A program made the position numbers and the translations under genes. From positions 1 through 29,035 of the IMG/VR virus record IMGVR_UViG_3300037493_001285: a stretch of DNA of 29,035 nt. One strand, 5' to 3'. Numbering within the stretch: position 1 is the stretch's first letter; each line of letters begins with the position of its first letter. The DNA is from a virus. Shown here in pieces: positions 3,623 to 18,970 of this stretch. The notes under the pieces are model-generated. The model was not told the origin of the DNA and made no database searches. It saw only the letters and a list, made by a program, of their open reading frames with translations.

Positions 3623-4162
3623 ATGGGCTGTGCCTCATATTGCGAATCAGGACTTGAGCCACATGACTTGGTGTCGTGCGGTGAATATAAATTAGGTGGT
3701 GTGTCTGCCATCGTTATCGGTTCATGTGCATCTGTTCTTGCTAATCCCGAAGACCCTGCTGAAATTGAAGCAGCTATTCTTGCTGGGACTGCGGTATTAG
3801 TTGAAGATATTCGTTTTGCTCTTCCTGCTGGTTCACCTATTACGGTTGATTCACCAGTAGGTTGTGGTACTACAATACGTATCAATGAAGATAGAACTGC
3901 TACTCTTTACGATGCAAACGTAACTGACCAAAACAACGCATTCTATAACTCATTAAACCAACAAAAAGTAGGTTGGATTATGGCTTATCTATGTGATAGT
4001 GGTAAGGTTATTTACATCGACCCACCAGTAGGTATCACAACATCTGCTAACTTTATTATCCCTGAACAGAACAACGAATTACAGAGATATGAAGTTACTT
4101 TCTCATGGAGAGAAAAAAACATTCCTACTCAATTCGCTGCACCAGCGGGTATCTTTGGATAA
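3623..4162 (+). CDS. Probable structural (virion) protein, 179 aa
   Basis: A compact protein starting MGCASYCESG, with several Cys in the first 35 residues and a beta-rich body ending in an aromatic strand (YEVTFSWREK) and a short tail (FAAPAGIFG). No catalytic or DNA-binding motif is seen. Codons such as CGT, GTT and GCT are more frequent than in the neighbours, resembling the major capsid gene and suggesting high expression. It has its own promoter (3519-3546). The stop TAA shares its last A with the ATG of the glycosyltransferase (TAATG). A major tail or decoration protein would fit, but this rests on codon use, promoter and context only. Confidence 0.5.
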   Translation: MGCASYCESGLEPHDLVSCGEYKLGGVSAIVIGSCASVLANPEDPAEIEAAILAGTAVLVEDIRFALPAGSPITVDSPVGCGTTIRINEDRTATLYDANVTDQNNAFYNSLNQQKVGWIMAYLCDSGKVIYIDPPVGITTSANFIIPEQNNELQRYEVTFSWREKNIPTQFAAPAGIFG

Positions 4163-5115
4163 TGACTGAGGAATTACACACTAACGATATTACCACATCT
4201 TCTACGGAGGGTGTGGTACTATTTGCTTTTGGCAAGGCTGGATACTATCAAGCAGCATACAACTTAGCCTATTCAATAAAGCATTATTCACCATCAGTTA
4301 AGATAGCACTCTTTGTTGATGAAATCAATAAGTGCAATAATGCTACTGGTGACATCAACAATTACGTTGATTCAATTTCAGAAATAGAACATTCCGACCT
4401 ATACGTAGATGGTAAATTTGACCCAGCTATGTTAAAGGTGTCTTTATATAAGTATCTGCCTTTCAAAAACAATCTATATCTTGATGTTGATGCGGTTTGT
4501 CTTAAAGACATTCAGCCACTTATTGATGATTTAGTTAGTACAAAGAGGCATTACATCAGTCATTGTGTGGGGTATCATACTATTGATTTAGGACGTGATA
4601 TCCCCTCAATGCAATGGGCATGGGCAGATGACATTTGGGAGCATTTTAAATTAGAAAATGATTCAATACTACCAGCAATCAATAGCAGCCTCCAATTTAT
4701 TAAGATAGGCAAAGAGTCAAATAAGTTATTTGAGATTCTTAGAAACCTTTATACGAATAACCAATTACCTACAAATAGATTGAGAATGAAGTGGGGTAAT
4801 GGTCAACCTGATGAACTCTATATGAATGTTGCATTGGCTATGACCCAGTATGACCCATCTTATAAGAATGAAGGTTTAGTAGGTGGTGGTAAATCTGAGA
4901 CTGGGTTCATTCATTTTGCTAATGTTCGTGGTTTAACATTTCAAGAGGTAACAGATAACTTTTACTTTCAGTCTTACTATGGTGGTCGCAATTTTACCTC
5001 ACGATTCTATACTGAGTGGTTAGATAGGTTAATGAAGGTAATGATGCGAACTCAAAATAAAATACATCAATTCCATATTGATAGAATCATAGGTCAAAAA
5101 TACGTTAATAAATGA
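4162..5115 (+). CDS. Glycosyltransferase, GT-A fold with DXD motif
   Basis: A 317-aa protein when started at ATG 4162, which forms TAATG with the previous stop. A longer frame from 4105 would overlap the upstream gene by 58 bases and add an unlikely peptide. The order fits small GT-A (GT8-like) enzymes: a first Rossmann-like half (VVLFAFGKAGYYQAAYNLA), then YLDVDAVCL with Asp108-Val-Asp110 as the metal/nucleotide-sugar binding DXD, then NSSLQFIK and GNGQPDELYMNVAL, where the second half of the active site is expected. It would transfer a sugar from a nucleotide donor to an unknown acceptor, perhaps a virion protein or host surface glycan. The next gene, a methyltransferase, overlaps by ATGA, so the two may act in sequence. 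Confidence 0.75.
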   Translation: MTEELHTNDITTSSTEGVVLFAFGKAGYYQAAYNLAYSIKHYSPSVKIALFVDEINKCNNATGDINNYVDSISEIEHSDLYVDGKFDPAMLKVSLYKYLPFKNNLYLDVDAVCLKDIQPLIDDLVSTKRHYISHCVGYHTIDLGRDIPSMQWAWADDIWEHFKLENDSILPAINSSLQFIKIGKESNKLFEILRNLYTNNQLPTNRLRMKWGNGQPDELYMNVALAMTQYDPSYKNEGLVGGGKSETGFIHFANVRGLTFQEVTDNFYFQSYYGGRNFTSRFYTEWLDRLMKVMMRTQNKIHQFHIDRIIGQKYVNK

Positions 5116-5699
5116 AAGACATATATACCAAAAAAGCAGTAAAACCTAAGAAGGTTGTTAAAGAAATAATAACTACTGAGACATTCACAGAGGTTGCAAG
5201 ACACGACTGGAACTCAGAAGATGAGGTAGGTCAGTTCTTAGCATCATTAGTTAAAATGTCAAAGTATAAGACTATTTTAGAAATAGGAGTATTTGAAGGT
5301 GAAACTACACAACATCTTATTAAGGCACTACCTAAAGGTGGTCAATATGTTGGTATTGATATCAATGATTATAGAACTGATGCTACTAAGCTATACATGA
5401 AAGAGGGTGGTAAGGCAATTGACTTTATTCTTGGTAACTCACATAACGAACTTAGTAAGCTACCATCAAATCACTTTGACTTAATCTTTGTGGATGGTGA
5501 CCATTCTTGGGCATCAATATTACCTGAATTTAAGTTAGTTGAAAAGTTAGTTAGTCGTGGTGGTGTAATTGCTTACCATGATACAATTCATTTACAAGAC
5601 CCTAAGAGACTTGTTGATTATGCAGCACATTATAACTACAATACAACAACATTGAACACACCTGAAGGTCGTGGAATATCTTTAATATCTAAATACTAA
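5112..5699 (+). CDS. Class I SAM-dependent methyltransferase (Methyltransf_24-like)
   Basis: A 195-aa protein with the class I fold motifs in order: ILEIGVFEGETT (residues 55-66, SAM-binding loop), YVGIDIND (79-86, acidic residue for the ribose), DLIFVDGDHSW (123-133) and GGVIAYHDTIH (150-160). The VDGDHSW and AYHD pattern is typical of the Methyltransf_24 group, often found next to glycosyltransferases and used on sugars. There is no DNA-methylase DPPY or NPPF motif, so a DNA target is unlikely. The first 25 residues are Lys-rich. The ATG overlaps the glycosyltransferase stop (ATGA), making a two-gene sugar-modification unit just before the portal gene. The acceptor cannot be told from the sequence. 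Confidence 0.78.
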   Translation: MKDIYTKKAVKPKKVVKEIITTETFTEVARHDWNSEDEVGQFLASLVKMSKYKTILEIGVFEGETTQHLIKALPKGGQYVGIDINDYRTDATKLYMKEGGKAIDFILGNSHNELSKLPSNHFDLIFVDGDHSWASILPEFKLVEKLVSRGGVIAYHDTIHLQDPKRLVDYAAHYNYNTTTLNTPEGRGISLISKY

Positions 5700-12754: not shown

Positions 12755-15540
12755 ACCTACTAAAGAGCATAATAGAGAGATTGAACCAAAGGGTTGAGGT
12801 AGCTAATATCTTTGACCAACTATACCCACTTTGTGAACTTAATGCAAATGGTAATGAGAAAGCATGGGTACATTATATAGGTAATGGTCAGGCTGAAGTA
12901 GTAACTAATTTTGATGCTAAACAAGGAACTCTCTTTTGGGCAAAACGTGGTAAGGTATCAGTTGTTAAGACTGAATCATTCAAGGTTAGTGGATGCAAAA
13001 CATTATATCAAACAACATTTCCATTAACGGCTTATGCAGTAGTAAGAAAGTCACATCTACCTTGTGATAGTGAAGACTCTCAAGATTGGATAGCATCACG
13101 AATCTACAGATTGATAAGTGGTACTGACCCTGATTTCAAAAGTGCATTAGCAGTCATTCAGTACGAGGTAATACCTAATGGTTATGTCAATGAGATTAAG
13201 TCATTAACTGCTAACTATGAGTGGGCGTGTGTTGCTATTGATGTAGATGTTGTAGTAGTAAGTACATCTGAAGATGGATGTTATGATATATGTGCAACTG
13301 GTGACATTCCACTACCCGATTTTGAACCATGCACACCATGTCTAACAGAGGTAGCAGTAGATGGTGTAACAATAACTGGTAATGGTACAACTGCTGACCC
13401 ATTAGTAGCAGTTGGTGGTGGTGGTTCAATCGTTTTACAAACAGATGGTGTTAATAACGGCTCACAATCAATTTTAAATCTAAAAGAGGGTACTAACATT
13501 ACCATTACTGACGATGGTGTAGGAGGAATCACTATTGATGCATCAGGTGGTGGTCTTACTCCATCATTACAAGATGTAACTGATGTTGGTAATACAACTA
13601 CCAATGATATATCATTCGGTTCAGGAGTAGGTGCTATATTTAATAATGGAGCAAAGGTAAAAGAAGGTACTACAGATGCTGGTTTAGGTGGAGCAAAGGG
13701 TGTAGCTATGATATGCTCCAATGCCTATGAATTGAAATGGGAGGCTGGTCGATTATACTATATGGAGCAAAACGGCTTTACTATCCGTGAGGTCACCCAT
13801 AACTTTACTATCACTCCATTAGTTACAGATGATTCAACAAAAGGTTTTGTAGTTGGTTCAAGGTGGACATTAGATAATGGTGATTTATATATTTGCTCAG
13901 ATGATACAATTGGTGCAGCAGTATGGAATCTTCAATCAGTTGGAGGTGTAACAGATGTTACTGCTACTGCACCATTATCATCAAGTAGTGGTGCAACACC
14001 CGATATAAGCATAAGTCAAGCAGATGGTACTACAGATGGTTATTTAAGTTCTACAGATTGGAATACATTTGATGGTAAGTTTAATGTACCAACGGGGTTA
14101 AGTACCGACTACCTTGATGGGACTGGTTCACCAGTAGCTTTTCCAACAATACCAACTGGTTCAGTTACATCAGTAGACTTAACAATGCCATCTGCATTCT
14201 CTGTTACTGGCAATCCAATAACTACAAGTGGTACATTGGCTGTTGCTGCTAATGGTGTGTCAACTCAATACATCAGAGGTGATGGTCAACTTGCAAACTT
14301 TCCGACATCAAGCGGAGGCGGTGCATCAGTTAGCTACTACCTCAACGGCTCAGTAAGTCAAGGTACTTTCGGAGGTGTCGCAATGCGTGAGATTAACAAA
14401 GTGCCAATCATTGGAGGTGGAACAGATTTCACTATCAATGCAGATGGCTATATTCAGTCATTCATAACTGATGCAAACGACCCAAATCAATTGGCAATTC
14501 CTGCGGGAAATTGGAACTTTGAAACTTACTTCAGCGCATCAAGCAACGGTGGAAGTCCAAGATTCTACATTGAGCTTTATAAGTGGGATGGCGCAACATT
14601 GACATTGATTGCATCCAATTCCACTAATCCAGAAAACATTACAGGAGGTACTACGATTGATTTATATCTGACTGCATTAGCAGTACCACAAACAACTCTT
14701 GCTGCAACTGACAGACTTGCTGTTCGATTTTATGTGATACATAGTGGGCGCACAATAACAATGCACACAGAGGACAATCACTTAAGCCAAGTCATTACAA
14801 CTTTCTCAACTGGCTTGACTGCGCTCAATGGACTCACTGCCCAAGTGCAACTCCTTGCAGTTGGAACAAGTGGAACTGACTTTGCTATTTCATCGGCAGG
14901 CTCAACCCACACCTTCAACCTACCAACGGCAAGTGCTGCCAACAGAGGAGCATTAAGCACAACGGATTGGAGTACATTCAACGGCAAGCAAGATACCTTA
15001 ACAAGTGGTACAAACATCAAGACCATCAACTCGACTTCGATACTTGGTGCAGGAAATATAAGCATTCCAGTTCCTACTATATACAAGTCAACTACTGATT
15101 CAGCAAGTTTCAGCAATACAACTAACACGGTTGTATTTACTCAATTGATAGCAGCTAATACCTTTGCAGTTGGTGACATCATTAGACTTAATTTCCGTAC
15201 AAGAAAAACTGGTGTATTAGGAAATCAAACTTTAAGAATGTATGTTAATGCAACTGCTGACTTAACTGGTACTCCAATATTGGTAAGTGCATGGGCAACA
15301 AGTACGGCAGCAAACTTATTGAATCAAATGTTTAGGCATTGGGTAATTAAGAATGCGACTACAAATACAGAAACATTATTTTCTGCATTTACTGGTTTTG
15401 CATCTGACTATGGAAATACAAATGGTATGGTTGCTAATGCCATTGATTGGACGGCAAACAGATATATTGTTTTTGCTCTTCAAAATAGTAATGCAGCAGA
15501 TGTCAATTTTGGTTCAATGTTTTTTATAGAAAAAATATGA
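12751..15540 (+). CDS. Large fibre/adhesin protein with virion-binding N-terminus
   Basis: A 929-aa protein. Residues 1-185 form a separate, Cys-containing alpha/beta domain that probably attaches to the virion. From about 190 it becomes Gly/Thr/Ser/Asp-rich and repetitive, as in fibres: VDGVTITGNGTTADPLVAVG (205-224), GSQSILNLKEGTNITITDDG (237-256), then two copies of an LSxTDWxTFxGK motif, DGYLSSTDWNTFDGKF and RGALSTTDWSTFNGKQ, which are common in phage fibres of Bacteroidetes. The C-terminal 150 residues form a different, probably globular, receptor-binding head. Bases of roughly 14290-15080 are richer in G/C than the flanks, suggesting exchange of a fibre segment between phages. It would bind the host surface. 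The next gene overlaps by ATGA. Confidence 0.68.
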   Translation: MNLLKSIIERLNQRVEVANIFDQLYPLCELNANGNEKAWVHYIGNGQAEVVTNFDAKQGTLFWAKRGKVSVVKTESFKVSGCKTLYQTTFPLTAYAVVRKSHLPCDSEDSQDWIASRIYRLISGTDPDFKSALAVIQYEVIPNGYVNEIKSLTANYEWACVAIDVDVVVVSTSEDGCYDICATGDIPLPDFEPCTPCLTEVAVDGVTITGNGTTADPLVAVGGGGSIVLQTDGVNNGSQSILNLKEGTNITITDDGVGGITIDASGGGLTPSLQDVTDVGNTTTNDISFGSGVGAIFNNGAKVKEGTTDAGLGGAKGVAMICSNAYELKWEAGRLYYMEQNGFTIREVTHNFTITPLVTDDSTKGFVVGSRWTLDNGDLYICSDDTIGAAVWNLQSVGGVTDVTATAPLSSSSGATPDISISQADGTTDGYLSSTDWNTFDGKFNVPTGLSTDYLDGTGSPVAFPTIPTGSVTSVDLTMPSAFSVTGNPITTSGTLAVAANGVSTQYIRGDGQLANFPTSSGGGASVSYYLNGSVSQGTFGGVAMREINKVPIIGGGTDFTINADGYIQSFITDANDPNQLAIPAGNWNFETYFSASSNGGSPRFYIELYKWDGATLTLIASNSTNPENITGGTTIDLYLTALAVPQTTLAATDRLAVRFYVIHSGRTITMHTEDNHLSQVITTFSTGLTALNGLTAQVQLLAVGTSGTDFAISSAGSTHTFNLPTASAANRGALSTTDWSTFNGKQDTLTSGTNIKTINSTSILGAGNISIPVPTIYKSTTDSASFSNTTNTVVFTQLIAANTFAVGDIIRLNFRTRKTGVLGNQTLRMYVNATADLTGTPILVSAWATSTAANLLNQMFRHWVIKNATTNTETLFSAFTGFASDYGNTNGMVANAIDWTANRYIVFALQNSNAADVNFGSMFFIEKI

Positions 15541-15759: not shown

Positions 15760-16281
15760 ATGGCTGGAATAAAAATTACCGACCTAACCCCACTTGCTAC
15801 GGCGGCAAGTGATGACTTGCTTTACATTGTCGATGTAAGTGATACAACTGAAAGTCCTGAAGGCTCTTCTAAAAAGATAACTTTGGCAAACTTGAAATCA
15901 GCATTAGATGTTTCAAGTGATGTGTTTCAATCTACTGAAACAACTCCAACTGGATTTGATTCTTTAGGTATCAATGAAGGTTCATATTTAAGGATTGGAG
16001 AAATTGTTCATTATGGATGCAATATAGAATTCAGTCTTGAAGCAACTGGTGTAGGTGCTGACCAAACAGGGGAGTTTGATATTGACTTTCCTGAAAAGGT
16101 TAATAATTTTAGTTTGGATTGGTATAGTTTTAACTTATCATTTAATGAAACATTGACAAGTACATTTTCTTCAAGCATTATTGAAGATAATTTAAAAGCA
16201 ATTATAACTATTAATAGTGCTGGAACTGGTGCTATACCAACAGATGGAGTGCTATATTTTACTGCTATTTATAAGCGATGA
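15760..16281 (+). CDS. Short fibre / receptor-binding-like protein
   Basis: A 173-aa protein. The start, KITDLTPLATAASDDLLYIV followed by a Thr/Ser/Pro-rich linker and KKITLANLKSAL, is a recurring N-terminal segment of phage tail fibre and tail spike proteins, where it trimerises or attaches the shaft. The rest is a beta-rich domain with a Gly-rich end (TAIYKR). It follows the main fibre gene, consistent with a second adhesin or a fibre tip. The lysozyme ATG overlaps its stop (ATGA). Confidence 0.6.
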   Translation: MAGIKITDLTPLATAASDDLLYIVDVSDTTESPEGSSKKITLANLKSALDVSSDVFQSTETTPTGFDSLGINEGSYLRIGEIVHYGCNIEFSLEATGVGADQTGEFDIDFPEKVNNFSLDWYSFNLSFNETLTSTFSSSIIEDNLKAIITINSAGTGAIPTDGVLYFTAIYKR

Positions 16282-16736
16282 ACATTAGCAAACGTGGTAT
16301 ACAACTTTTGAAAGACTTTGAAGGTCTTAGGCTCAATGCCTACAAGTGTAGTGCTGGTGTTGCTACAATTGGTTTTGGAAGTTGTTTCTATCCCGACAAA
16401 TCTAATGTCAAGATGGGCGATGTGCTACGTGATAAAGAAGAGGCTGAAATATTACTGATTAATACCTTAGTTGACTACGATATCTATGTTAGCAAGTACA
16501 CCAAGTCAGTCAAGTTGACCCAATACCAATTTGATGCTTTGGTGTGCTTTGCCTTTAACGTGGGTTTAGGTAACCTTTCCAAGTCTACACTACTCAAGAT
16601 GGTACTAAGCAATCCAAATGACCCTAAGATACCAGCAGAGTTTGCTAAATGGAACAAGGCTGGTGGAAAAGTAGTGCAAGGTTTGGTTAAAAGAAGACAA
16701 AAAGAAGGAGAACTATATTTCACAAAGGTCGTATAG
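16278..16736 (+). CDS. Endolysin, GH24 lysozyme (T4/lambdoid type)
   Basis: A 152-aa muramidase that cleaves the glycan backbone of peptidoglycan at the end of infection. The start FEGLRLNAYKCSAGVATIGF fits the GH24 pattern E-x8-[D/C]-x5-T: Glu15, Cys24, Thr30. Cys in place of the usual Asp is a known variant of the family. Later family segments are LTQYQFDALVCFAFNVGLG and a C-terminal VVQGLVKRRQKEGELYF, the expected arginine-rich helix. No signal peptide, so export would depend on the holin. It overlaps the upstream fibre gene by ATGA and is followed 5 bases later by a holin-like gene. Confidence 0.92.
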   Translation: MNISKRGIQLLKDFEGLRLNAYKCSAGVATIGFGSCFYPDKSNVKMGDVLRDKEEAEILLINTLVDYDIYVSKYTKSVKLTQYQFDALVCFAFNVGLGNLSKSTLLKMVLSNPNDPKIPAEFAKWNKAGGKVVQGLVKRRQKEGELYFTKVV

Positions 16737-16741
16737 TTTGT

Positions 16742-16951
16742 ATGGCTATTGAACCGAAGAAATTTAAACAGATAGCTGACTTGATTATGGTGTATTGGCA
16801 TCTAACAATTGGCTCACTCATATCTGTAGTTGGATTTTGGCTATTTTTCTCTAAGAAGATAGATAAAGAGTCATTTGCATACATCATTGGTGCAGTAGTT
16901 ACCTTGAAATGGGTGTGGAAACCATCTGAGAAAGGGGGTACTGATGTTTGA
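16742..16951 (+). CDS. Holin-like membrane protein
   Basis: A 69-aa protein with two hydrophobic segments, about residues 14-37 (LIMVYWHLTIGSLISVVGFW) and 45-59 (FAYIIGAVVTLKWVW), separated by a charged KKIDKE turn and ending in a charged tail. Size, topology and position directly after the lysozyme fit a holin, which opens the inner membrane at the lysis time. Overlaps the next gene by 8 bases. Confidence 0.7.
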   Translation: MAIEPKKFKQIADLIMVYWHLTIGSLISVVGFWLFFSKKIDKESFAYIIGAVVTLKWVWKPSEKGGTDV

Positions 16952-17432
16952 AGCAGTTAAGGATACCATCCAGTCTAACTATAAGGTCACTTATGATACA
17001 ACATACACTATAAATCGTAAGGAAATAAAACAACCTGAACCATTTATGTTTGTAAATCACTATATGGGTGACACCTCAATGTACATTTACAAAAATCAAT
17101 GGGGTGAGACACTATATGTTGATGAATTATTGACTAAATTTGAGCCAAATGTTGAGGTAGAAGTTGAGCCAATACCAGTAATACCATTTCGTGCATCAGA
17201 TACCATACAACCTTGTGATGCTAAGTGGTTAATTAAGGGAAAAAAGTTTGAACTTACACCTTATTCGATACAAAAATGTGAAAATAAGATGGCTCAAGAC
17301 TACTTATATAGTGATTTATCAAACTCAATTGTAATGATGTTGATGCTATTGGCTACCTCAATATGGCTATATCGTTCTACATTTTATTGGTTAGATATGA
17401 TTCGTAAGATTAACAAGATAGTACGTAGTTAG
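16944..17432 (+). CDS. Membrane protein of the lysis cassette
   Basis: A 162-aa protein. The first 120 residues are soluble and beta-like, with a Glu/Pro-rich stretch (EVEVEPIPVIP, 71-81). One strong membrane helix follows at about 126-144 (LSNSIVMMLMLLATSIWLYR), then a short basic tail (RKINKIVRS). Family not recognised. Lying between the holin-like and PAS-HisKA genes, it could be an antiholin, a lysis regulator or a partner of the PAS-HisKA protein; the sequence alone does not decide. ATG overlaps the holin-like stop by 8 bases. Confidence 0.5.
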   Translation: MFEAVKDTIQSNYKVTYDTTYTINRKEIKQPEPFMFVNHYMGDTSMYIYKNQWGETLYVDELLTKFEPNVEVEVEPIPVIPFRASDTIQPCDAKWLIKGKKFELTPYSIQKCENKMAQDYLYSDLSNSIVMMLMLLATSIWLYRSTFYWLDMIRKINKIVRS

Positions 17433-17435
17433 TCA

Positions 17436-18005
17436 ATGTCAGCAATATACATCTTAGCCAATTCTATTGACTTGTTGTATGTCGTATCTGACTATGAAGG
17501 TAAGATAGTTAGTTCTAATGACCTTTTCAAAGAGTATAGTTCACACATCAAACCTAAGAAGGTAAGTGATATCATAACAGATGATACTGAGTTAGATGAT
17601 TATGTTCAATCGGTTAAGAGAGCCATTGAGATTACACCTAACCCAGTAAGAATCTACGCACGAACTAAGCAGAAAAATAGTGGTTTAAGATGGGTGCTTT
17701 GGAATTGCTATGCAATACTTGGTAGTTTACATTTTGTAGGTTTTCAAATTACCGATGTCACCAGTATAACATCTCACGAACACGAGAAACAAAAGCAGTT
17801 ACTTGAAGAGTTCAGATTTATGTTATCTCACGAACTAAGGCAACCATTGACATCAGTTGCTGGTGTGGTTAAGTTGTTACTTGACAAAGAGGGTAAGATG
17901 GAAGATGTAGAACAAAACGAACTACTCAAGATGGTTGATGATTCAATGAAGAGATTAGATGAATCAATACATTTACTGGTTAAGAAAGCAACACGGCAGT
18001 TATGA
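17436..18005 (+). CDS. PAS-HisKA protein lacking an ATPase domain
   Basis: A 189-aa protein with the front half of a sensor histidine kinase. Residues about 8-108 look like a PAS domain (DLLYVVSDYEGKIVSSNDLF at the start, LRWVLWNCYAILG and GFQITDVTS at the end). A linker helix leads into a HisKA dimerisation domain (118-185) with the H-box FMLSHELRQPLTSVAGVVKL: His132 would be the phosphoacceptor, Glu133 the usual acidic neighbour and Pro137 the helix-bending Pro. The protein ends after the second helix. No N, G1, F or G2 box of HATPase_c is present here or in any frame of the next gene, so it cannot phosphorylate itself. It may dimerise with or take phosphate from a host kinase, or act as a decoy. 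It has no membrane segment. Confidence 0.8.
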   Translation: MSAIYILANSIDLLYVVSDYEGKIVSSNDLFKEYSSHIKPKKVSDIITDDTELDDYVQSVKRAIEITPNPVRIYARTKQKNSGLRWVLWNCYAILGSLHFVGFQITDVTSITSHEHEKQKQLLEEFRFMLSHELRQPLTSVAGVVKLLLDKEGKMEDVEQNELLKMVDDSMKRLDESIHLLVKKATRQL

Positions 18006-18202
18006 GAGAATGCACCTTACCAATGGACGAAGAAGAAGCAGATGAGAGACTGCTTAATGTGGTAAAGCATTATGTGACTGAACGTGAAATGCCAATTTAT
18101 GTAGCTAAGAATGTTCTTAGAAGCAACCTAAGAGATAAGTCTTGTTTTGAATTGAAGTGGGAAAAGTTCATTAAGTTAATTGGTGGTTATGCAACAAAGT
18201 AA
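18002..18202 (+). CDS. Small acidic/basic protein after PAS-HisKA
   Basis: A 66-aa protein with an ATGA overlap to the PAS-HisKA gene. It has a helical, acidic start (PMDEEEADERLLNVVKHYVT) and a basic end. No known family and no membrane segment. The tight coupling suggests a joint role with the PAS-HisKA protein, but it contains no ATPase or receiver motif. Confidence 0.5.
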   Translation: MRECTLPMDEEEADERLLNVVKHYVTEREMPIYVAKNVLRSNLRDKSCFELKWEKFIKLIGGYATK

Positions 18203-18863
18203 GTTTGATTCACTTGATAAGGTGCTAATGATGGTTGCTGCATTTGTTATGATACTTATATTTATTCATACTTGTGGTAAGAATGGTCAGTTAACTATTG
18301 ACTATCGTAAGATGAAAGAAGAGGTACAGAATTATAAGGTGCAGCACTTAGAAGATTCAAGTAAATTGATTAGCCAAGCTATAAACTATCAGAGTGAGAT
18401 TGATTCAAGGAATATGGCAATTAAACTACTTGCCATTCGAAATCCTAAAGAAGTTGTTAAGATTCAATATAAGACTAAGGTAGAAACTAAGATTCAACTT
18501 GCTGAACCTATCACAATTGATTCAAGTAAGTACATTAAGTTACCAGTTGAGTTCTCAGATTATAATGATTGGTATTCTATTGATGGTAAGATAGACTCAT
18601 TAGGAGTGCTTGTAATCGACTCAATTGTATCAAGTGGTACTTTGACTTATTCTGTTGGAGATACGTTAAGAGATGGTCTTATTAATCGTTTGTTGAGAAA
18701 ATCAGATAGTGTAGTTAGATTACACATTGATAATCCTACTATGTCAATCAGCAACCTATCTAATATTTACGTTAAGAAAGAACCCAAGTGGTATGAATCA
18801 ACTGCATTTAAAGTTGGTGTAGGTGTATTATTAGGTATTGGTATCTGCAGTCAAATAAAATAA
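18189..18863 (+). CDS. Spanin-like protein with both ends hydrophobic
   Basis: A 224-aa protein when started at ATG 18189 (TTG 18180 and GTG 18183 lie just upstream in frame). A hydrophobic N-terminal segment (residues 11-28) ends in HTC29GK, then a long, charged region with coiled-coil potential (YRKMKEEVQNYKVQHLEDSS), a beta-like middle, and a C-terminal hydrophobic segment (about 204-221, FKVGVGVLLGIGIC). This layout fits proteins that span the periplasm, such as unimolecular spanins that join inner and outer membranes at lysis. Cys29 is not in a canonical lipobox (IHTC), so lipid attachment is doubtful. It is the last gene before the early promoter region. Spanin is an inference from topology and place. 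Confidence 0.5.
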   Translation: MQQSKFDSLDKVLMMVAAFVMILIFIHTCGKNGQLTIDYRKMKEEVQNYKVQHLEDSSKLISQAINYQSEIDSRNMAIKLLAIRNPKEVVKIQYKTKVETKIQLAEPITIDSSKYIKLPVEFSDYNDWYSIDGKIDSLGVLVIDSIVSSGTLTYSVGDTLRDGLINRLLRKSDSVVRLHIDNPTMSISNLSNIYVKKEPKWYESTAFKVGVGVLLGIGICSQIK

Positions 18864-18940: not shown

Positions 18941-18970
18941 TTGCAGATTCAAAAAAAGGTTTTATCTTTG
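18941..18970 (+). promoter_or_regulatory. Promoter of the early/replication module
   Basis: TTG (18941-18943), a 19-nt spacer and a perfect TATCTTTG (18963-18970). The upstream GGTATTGCAG and TTCAAAAA blocks recur at other candidate promoters. It lies between the lysis cassette and the replication genes, with a leader of about 45 nt ending in A-rich sequence before ATG 19019. Confidence 0.7.

Follow-up and report, generated by a model that had tools for sequence, protein, structure and literature searches.

A conserved phage PAS-HisKA protein without an ATPase domain, encoded with a small partner gene among lysis genes

Gene Content of the Locus

The window, that is, the whole stretch of DNA analyzed here, is 29,035 bases long and is the entire IMG/VR virus record IMGVR_UViG_3300037493_001285. 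The gene under study lies at positions 17436–18005 on the + strand, starts with ATG and encodes a protein of 189 amino acids; coordinates, strand, frame and length had been given correctly in the original prediction. We describe the product as a PAS-HisKA protein without an ATPase domain, on the basis of a Pfam HisKA match, an AlphaFold2 model and 253 complete non-duplicate copies.

The neighboring genes described here are also on the + strand. Upstream, an endolysin gene of the phage lysozyme family (16278–16736; Pfam PF00959, E = 1.3e-37) is followed by genes for a holin-like small membrane protein of 69 amino acids with one predicted membrane segment (16742–16951) and for a protein whose single membrane segment lies close to the C-terminus and whose DTIQP motif also occurs in diverged relatives (16944–17432). 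Downstream are found a gene for a small soluble protein of 66 amino acids, hereafter the small partner (18002–18202), and a gene for a spanin-like protein (18180–18863), in which an N-terminal membrane segment is followed by a Cys and, further on, by a weak C-terminal hydrophobic stretch. Among the 240 complete relatives listed, the N-terminal segment and the Cys were present in 238 and the C-terminal segment was above threshold in 83, the window copy being below. The holin-like and spanin-like proteins had no usable match in Pfam, PHROG or NCBIfam; thus, of the flanking lysis genes, the lysozyme is identified by homology, while holin-like and spanin-like are names given on topology. The tight coupling noted in the original prediction is correct: the PAS-HisKA gene begins 3 nt after the upstream stop codon and shares a 4-nt ATGA start/stop overlap with the small partner gene, which the original prediction had missed, as it had the size and the universality of the family. 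Elsewhere in the window, at 4105–5699 in the structural-gene block, a 336-aa protein without a family match adjoins an O-methyltransferase-like gene (PF01596, E = 4.2e-19).

Domain Composition and Predicted Structure

The Pfam HisKA profile (PF00512) matched residues 129–178 with an E-value of 1.1e-9 and a score of 38.6 bits, for a cut-off of 26.9. This profile also matched 36 of 37 diverse family members at E up to 1, and the record holding the most diverged copy (L243) gave no PF00512 match at E = 0.05. The predicted H-box was present, with His132 (codon at 17829–17831), the predicted phospho-acceptor, in the context ...EEFRFMLSHELRQPLTS..., and this His was found in 200 of 200 distinct genes. 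For the front part of the protein, Pfam gave no match in the window copy, though 3 of 37 family members matched PAS_9 at E up to 1, and the S-box profile reached E = 0.0029 and 17.7 bits, under its cut-off of 22.9 bits. The NCBIfam models of the PnpS and PhoR kinases covered residues 17–180 (E = 3.9e-8 and 1.7e-7), with scores of 30–33 bits against membership cut-offs of 334–400, and the alignment ended at about half of the model length, ahead of the ATPase domain.

An AlphaFold2 model built from 37 family members (mean pLDDT 79.4, pTM 0.51) predicted a PAS fold at residues 11–106 (17466–17753) and a helical hairpin, with helix 1, which includes the H-box, at residues 111–150 (17766–17885) and helix 2 at residues 157–188 (17904–17999); an earlier model from 16 close sequences (pLDDT 51.4) was too poor for use. 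The PAS part superimposed on known PAS domains with a Z-score of 14.6 and an rmsd of 1.9 over 94 residues, and a Foldseek search with the whole-length model matched LOV-histidine kinases (chimeras) at E = 1.1e-7. The PAS-like front seen in the original prediction is thus borne out by the modeled fold and by the PnpS/PhoR alignment across both domains. The same prediction had called for a structure prediction, with the absence of a HisKA fold as the outcome that would speak against it; instead, a HisKA hairpin was predicted. Profile match, His with the following acid and two antiparallel predicted helices are all found in this product, which, as judged from sequence and model, is a PAS domain followed by a complete two-helix HisKA/DHp domain. 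In the model, the protein ends after DHp helix 2, just where a kinase would continue into its ATPase domain. No membrane segment was predicted, and the protein is probably cytoplasmic and dimeric.

Absence of ATPase and Receiver Domains

The original prediction had found no HATPase_c motif in this gene or the next, and this was confirmed on a wider scale. The HATPase_c profile (PF02518) matched none of 30 records, i.e., the window and 29 relatives, while control genomes were positive in 14 of 14 cases; the receiver domain profile (PF00072) also matched none of the 30, with 12 of 14 control genomes positive. These records are 13–62 kb long, most of them 28–39 kb, and may be fragments. An ATPase supplied by another phage gene was therefore rejected, PF02518 being present in 0 of 30 records, and no domain of the HATPase_c type occurred among the 26 window ORFs run against Pfam. 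The PAS-HisKA protein is thus not a histidine kinase, as it lacks a HATPase_c domain in cis. Also, a two-component system of the phage's own was not found, no phage-encoded receiver being detected in these 30 possibly incomplete records.

Linkage to the Lysis Region

A search of related phages for linkage to lysis genes, proposed in the original prediction, placed the gene in the lysozyme region throughout: in 185 of 185 listed loci with enough sequence, the lysozyme gene lay at most 2.1 kb upstream of the PAS-HisKA gene, and in the capsid-anchored set described below the linkage was found in 47 of 47 cases (of 80 loci kept). By BLAST, the spanin-like gene was present nearby in 191 of 191 listed loci and the small partner gene in 205 of 210, the five misses being short divergent copies, of which three were read (L111, L059, L123). 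An open frame with the motif of the small partner, taken from the alignment, was present in 242 of 242 listed non-duplicate contigs with room for it (11 contigs end too soon), and the 4-nt overlap in 216. The small partner counts 52–68 amino acids in most aligned members, with D, L, Y and MP invariant in 16 of 16. It has no usable relative in Pfam or the PDB, the best PDB match (E = 0.016) being to an unrelated protein; Pfam returned scattered weak matches, such as LexA_DNA_bind (E = 0.026; 2 of 16 members). Its assignment as a known kinase inhibitor or a DNA-binding protein is unproven, these profile matches being unusable.

Three diverged loci (L243, L291 and L304) carry different versions of the lysozyme and membrane genes as well as additional inserted genes, and a lipoprotein-like (spanin-like) gene with a C-terminal hydrophobic stretch lies upstream of the PAS-HisKA gene. 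The PAS-HisKA and small partner genes are still paired there, at the end of the lysis region. Since the pair persists where the lysis genes have been replaced, we consider the pair itself to be the unit. The PAS-HisKA product falls outside the holin, endolysin and spanin classes, having no membrane segment and no homology to lysis proteins, and its PHROG matches are to families of unknown function and kinase families only. Moreover, these phages share ancestry and the gene order is partly inherited, so that the link to lysis is weaker than it looks. The PAS-HisKA protein without ATPase, its predicted HisKA hairpin and its place in the lysozyme region have thus held, while the lysis link of the original prediction reflects in part inherited gene order; it is a link by place, from which an effect on lysis may be supposed.

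Other genes were observed in these regions. L243 carries a DNA (cytosine-5) methyltransferase gene inside the lysis region (13130–14173; TIGR00675, E = 5.1e-30), and secreted-looking proteins of about 255 amino acids are encoded between the lysozyme and holin-like genes in L040 (6452–7252), L053 (6297–7058), L243 (12201–12968) and L291 (7102–7866), with no convincing NCBIfam match.

Distribution of the Family

The PAS-HisKA gene was found in at least 266 non-duplicate viral contigs, the window included, duplicates having been taken out by listed duplicates and by sequence containment. Pattern scans of viral contigs kept 41, 80, 80 and 80 loci, one of them confirming as many as 394 relatives, and a scan with the PAS part alone kept the best 80 of 403; the large scans thus hold the best 80 of 198–403 confirmed relatives, the most distant ones lying outside the sample. 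Complete non-duplicate copies among the listed relatives numbered 253, with lengths of 188 (195 copies), 189 (55) and 183 amino acids (3). The equivalent of His132 was kept in all 253, so that homologues lacking the His, named in the original prediction as evidence against it, did not occur in this set. Two scans used H-box patterns, which favor conserved copies, three used patterns elsewhere, and a further one was capsid-based; the scans patterned outside the H-box and the capsid-anchored scan likewise showed no loss. The latter does not select for the PAS-HisKA gene, and the gene was present in 43 of 43 of its contigs with at least 8.5 kb downstream (of 80 loci kept), the copies of L239, L256, L274, L276 and L289 being incomplete, as far as read at contig ends. 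The gene is thus near universal in its phage lineage.

Two pattern scans of a prokaryote genome collection (120 and 62 candidates), which distant relatives can escape, gave no confirmed relative, and a prophage life style is therefore without support. Among 50,697 annotated phage records no family member was found (best E = 8e-3, over residues 104–174 only), nor any match to the window capsid protein, and neither the HisKA nor the family profile matched any of six isolated phages of Bacteroidota. On plasmids, too, no close cellular kinase was found: PAS-domain proteins encoded there, some of them sensor kinases, were matched in 17 records with 25–38% identity and E = 1e-4 at best, weakly spanning up to 94% of the length of the PAS-HisKA protein. 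In the open-access literature searched, we found no description of an ATPase-less phage HisKA protein; the family is a known kind of domain protein, for whose placement among lysis genes no description was found in that literature.

Residue Conservation and Selection

Residue counts were made on 200 distinct genes. His132 was invariant, with CAT as codon in 107 genes and CAC in 92, one row's codons being out of register. The following position (H+1) was always an acid (Glu 199, Asp 1), H+3 was Arg in 197, H+4 was Gln in 197, Ser in 2 and Asn in 1, and H+5 was Pro in 199; in helix 2, L181, K184 and R187 were invariant. Mean amino-acid entropy was 0.17 for residues 126–140, the lowest of the stretches compared, 1.04 for residues 1–110, 1.28 for helix 2 and 2.22 for the loop. 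As the mean codon entropy was 1.7 or more despite the low amino-acid entropy, the constraint acts on the protein. A near-fixed central H-box with a variable helix 2 and loop is what one would expect of a constant chemistry combined with a changing partner surface. Pairwise dN/dS values against the window were about 0.075 for the PAS-HisKA gene (14 pairs), compared with 0.091 in the capsid gene (8 pairs) and 0.092 in the lysozyme gene (14 pairs), all upper bounds, as the count averages over paths and Leu, Ser and Arg changes give a non-zero dN in near-identical stretches. The PAS-HisKA gene is thus under strong purifying selection.

The exceptions in the H-box belong to two outlying lineages (L291/L304 and L243), whose capsid protein is 85% identical to that of the window. 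L291 and L304 read SHELLSPL, with Ser at H+4. L243, the most diverged copy (40% identical), reads NHDVINNV, with Asn at H+4; Arg, Gln and Pro are gone, and the His and the acid (here Asp) are kept.

In HisKA kinases, the H+1 acid is required for kinase activity and dispensable for phosphatase activity, while phosphatase activity requires Thr or Asn at H+4, and the N375Q change in CrdS left no measurable phosphatase activity, according to the available text of PMC3510030. In the phage family, H+4 is Gln in 197 of 200 genes rather than Thr, as in RetS, or Asn. As the H+1 acid is kept together with this Gln, the protein looks suited to accepting a phosphoryl group rather than removing one from a receiver. 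To judge from its residues, the Asn of L243 would permit phosphatase activity, and the Ser of L291 and L304 may also be a partial exception.

Host Group and Expression

Relatives of the portal protein were found in 18 records, 17 of which are named phages of Bacteroidota genera. A Shine-Dalgarno-like site was present at none of the 39 window gene starts examined, and the motif TAnnTTTG occurred 30 times, for 16.6 expected and a maximum of 29 in 200 shuffles. Absent Shine-Dalgarno sites and TAnnTTTG are marks of Bacteroidota, so both observations fit a Bacteroidota host. From the window start to position 18863 the genes form a one-direction block, after which a Bacteroidota-type promoter-like site (TTG ... 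TAnnTTTG; 18941–18970, + strand), a consensus match from a pattern scan, heads the next block. The PAS-HisKA gene therefore stands near the end of the late block, a layout that suggests late expression.

Proposed Function and Alternatives

We favor, tentatively and at a little under an even chance, the reading that the PAS-HisKA protein is a phosphoacceptor that uses host two-component proteins. The protein would be a conserved phage half-kinase, a PAS-DHp protein made together with the lysis proteins and the small partner. Because a DHp domain without an ATPase domain cannot phosphorylate itself, the phosphoryl donor would have to be the host's. His132 would be supplied by a host two-component protein, through the action in trans of a host histidine kinase's ATPase domain or through exchange with a host receiver domain, and a host signaling path would thereby be drained or re-routed late in infection. 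The obvious candidate would be an envelope or nutrient response still active at that time, and the PAS domain and the small partner may tune the half-kinase. As PnpS and PhoR are kinases of the phosphate regulon, the host target may be related to phosphate, although generic similarity among PAS-HisKA proteins could also account for this match. RetS and PIT4, described below, serve as precedents for the phosphoacceptor reading. Against it, the His and the acid may have been retained to pack the DHp core, and the H+4 residues of L291/L304 and L243 depart from the pattern. A more elaborate scheme, in which a host kinase phosphorylates the half-kinase in trans and the phosphoryl group of His132 is passed, gated by the PAS domain, to the small partner, lysis being timed or protected in this way, we consider improbable. 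If true, it would represent a two-gene phage signaling module grafted on the host two-component network and reading the signaling state of the host.

DHp domains are dimerization domains, and the protein could also act as a passive decoy, forming mixed DHp dimers with a host kinase or covering a host receiver, with no phosphotransfer. The match of the whole-length model to LOV-kinases agrees with this idea, as does the reported binding of host kinase domains by PIT4 of Pseudomonas phage LSL4, in the available text of PMC10714779. However, such a decoy could do without the His and without the kinase-specific acid, yet both are kept in 200 of 200 genes, and L243 retains them despite the loss of the remaining H-box, which leaves this reading unlikely. 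A similar difficulty faces the view that the hairpin and the His serve structure or assembly only, as a pseudo-DHp scaffold free of phosphoryl chemistry. The phage has no ATPase, and a PAS-DHp protein could be a plain dimer scaffold; yet the scaffold leaves unexplained the H+1 acid and, in L243, a His kept while Arg and Pro were lost, and we regard it as quite improbable. The least credible proposal, with hardly any chance of being right, is that the gene is the decaying remnant of a captured kinase or that the match arose by chance: the alignment to PhoR/PnpS-type kinases does run up to the start of the ATPase domain, but decay is contradicted by the lengths of 183–189 amino acids in 253 of 253 complete copies and by the dN/dS of about 0.075.

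Two other alternatives turn on the position of the gene and not on its chemistry. In one, the PAS domain senses the state of the dying cell (redox, ligand or energy) and the protein, via its DHp dimer, regulates the small partner or the neighboring membrane proteins and sets the time of lysis, host two-component proteins playing no part. The lysozyme region in 185 of 185 listed loci and the coupling with the small partner gene in 242 of 242 contigs argue for such a phage-internal regulator. Nevertheless, the spanin-like gene moves and the lysozyme and membrane genes are swapped while the pair stays, so that it is not tied to one lysis set; shared ancestry accounts for much of the fixed gene order, and lysis control alone does not explain the catalytic residues. 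We think this regulator unlikely. The pair could instead be a host-modifying set at the end of the late block with no part in lysis, which we hold to be possible if somewhat doubtful, and which is compatible with the phosphoacceptor reading. It would agree with the promoter-like site that follows at 18941–18970 and with the position of the pair behind the whole lysis set in L243, L291 and L304. Accessory genes are usually patchy, however, and this gene is not, being present in 43 of 43 long-enough capsid-anchored contigs (of 80 loci kept).

The phosphoacceptor reading matters because the family would carry the phospho-acceptor fold of the host kinases themselves while being near universal in a phage lineage and placed among lysis genes. 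Were it phosphorylated by host kinases, host sensing would be linked with the closing stage of the infection cycle, and the protein would offer a natural tool for re-wiring bacterial signaling. Reports of phage proteins with a direct action on host two-component systems are very rare. The available text of PMC10714779 states that no phage protein acting directly on host two-component systems had been reported before PIT4, in 2023. Our sequence and model data suggest that the half-kinase and its tiny companion gene, found in many related Bacteroidota-type phages, may plug into host signaling at lysis. The observation behind the original prediction was right and larger than first seen, and its interpretation, in which the protein enters host kinases as a decoy or relay so that host signals influence lysis timing or stress response, may be considered plausible.

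Comparison With Known Systems

Sensor kinases of the PhoR/PnpS type, the best NCBIfam matches, share with the phage protein the succession of PAS and HisKA over residues 17–180, and differ from it in their catalytic ATPase domain and membrane segment. In Pseudomonas aeruginosa, RetS has a degenerate ATPase domain and an intact H-box and down-regulates another kinase (PMC5992135), which indicates, within the available text of that paper, that loss of ATPase function need not prevent a kinase from controlling another one via its remaining domains. The phage protein resembles RetS in having an intact H-box and no working ATPase. However, RetS, as described there, keeps its degenerate HATPase domain, a phosphoryl-accepting receiver and an HExxT phosphatase motif, whereas the phage protein lacks both ATPase and receiver and reads HExxQ. 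Phosphotransferases of the Spo0B/ChpT type transfer phosphoryl groups between two receivers. Those of the Spo0B type have a DHp-like fold, used there to carry a phosphoryl group, and Spo0B has a remnant ATPase domain; the phage protein, in contrast, adds an N-terminal PAS domain and has no remnant ATPase and no receiver partner in the phage. The available text of PMC11210211 likens Spo0B to a kinase's phosphotransfer domain. PIT4 is, like the protein proposed here, a phage protein targeting host two-component kinases, but it is the product of an early gene, and the available description of it, which sets it apart, contains no kinase mimicry.

Virus-encoded proteins were also matched in BFVD. 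The histidine kinase A0A6J5L941 (528 aa) matched over PAS and DHp (Foldseek, E = 3.0e-7), and several such virus-encoded histidine kinases are much longer than the phage protein, while A0A8D9CBR8, from an uncultured marine phage and named "histidine kinase", is of similar size at 165 aa (E = 6.4e-4). In Cellulophaga phage phi19:1 (L305/L306), gp108 (54202–54924, 240 aa), taken by protein length to be BFVD entry R9ZZL0, matches the PAS-HisKA model at E = 1.5e-3. It has no Pfam match, the gene next to it matches a holin very weakly, and it is perhaps another PAS-like protein beside lysis genes.
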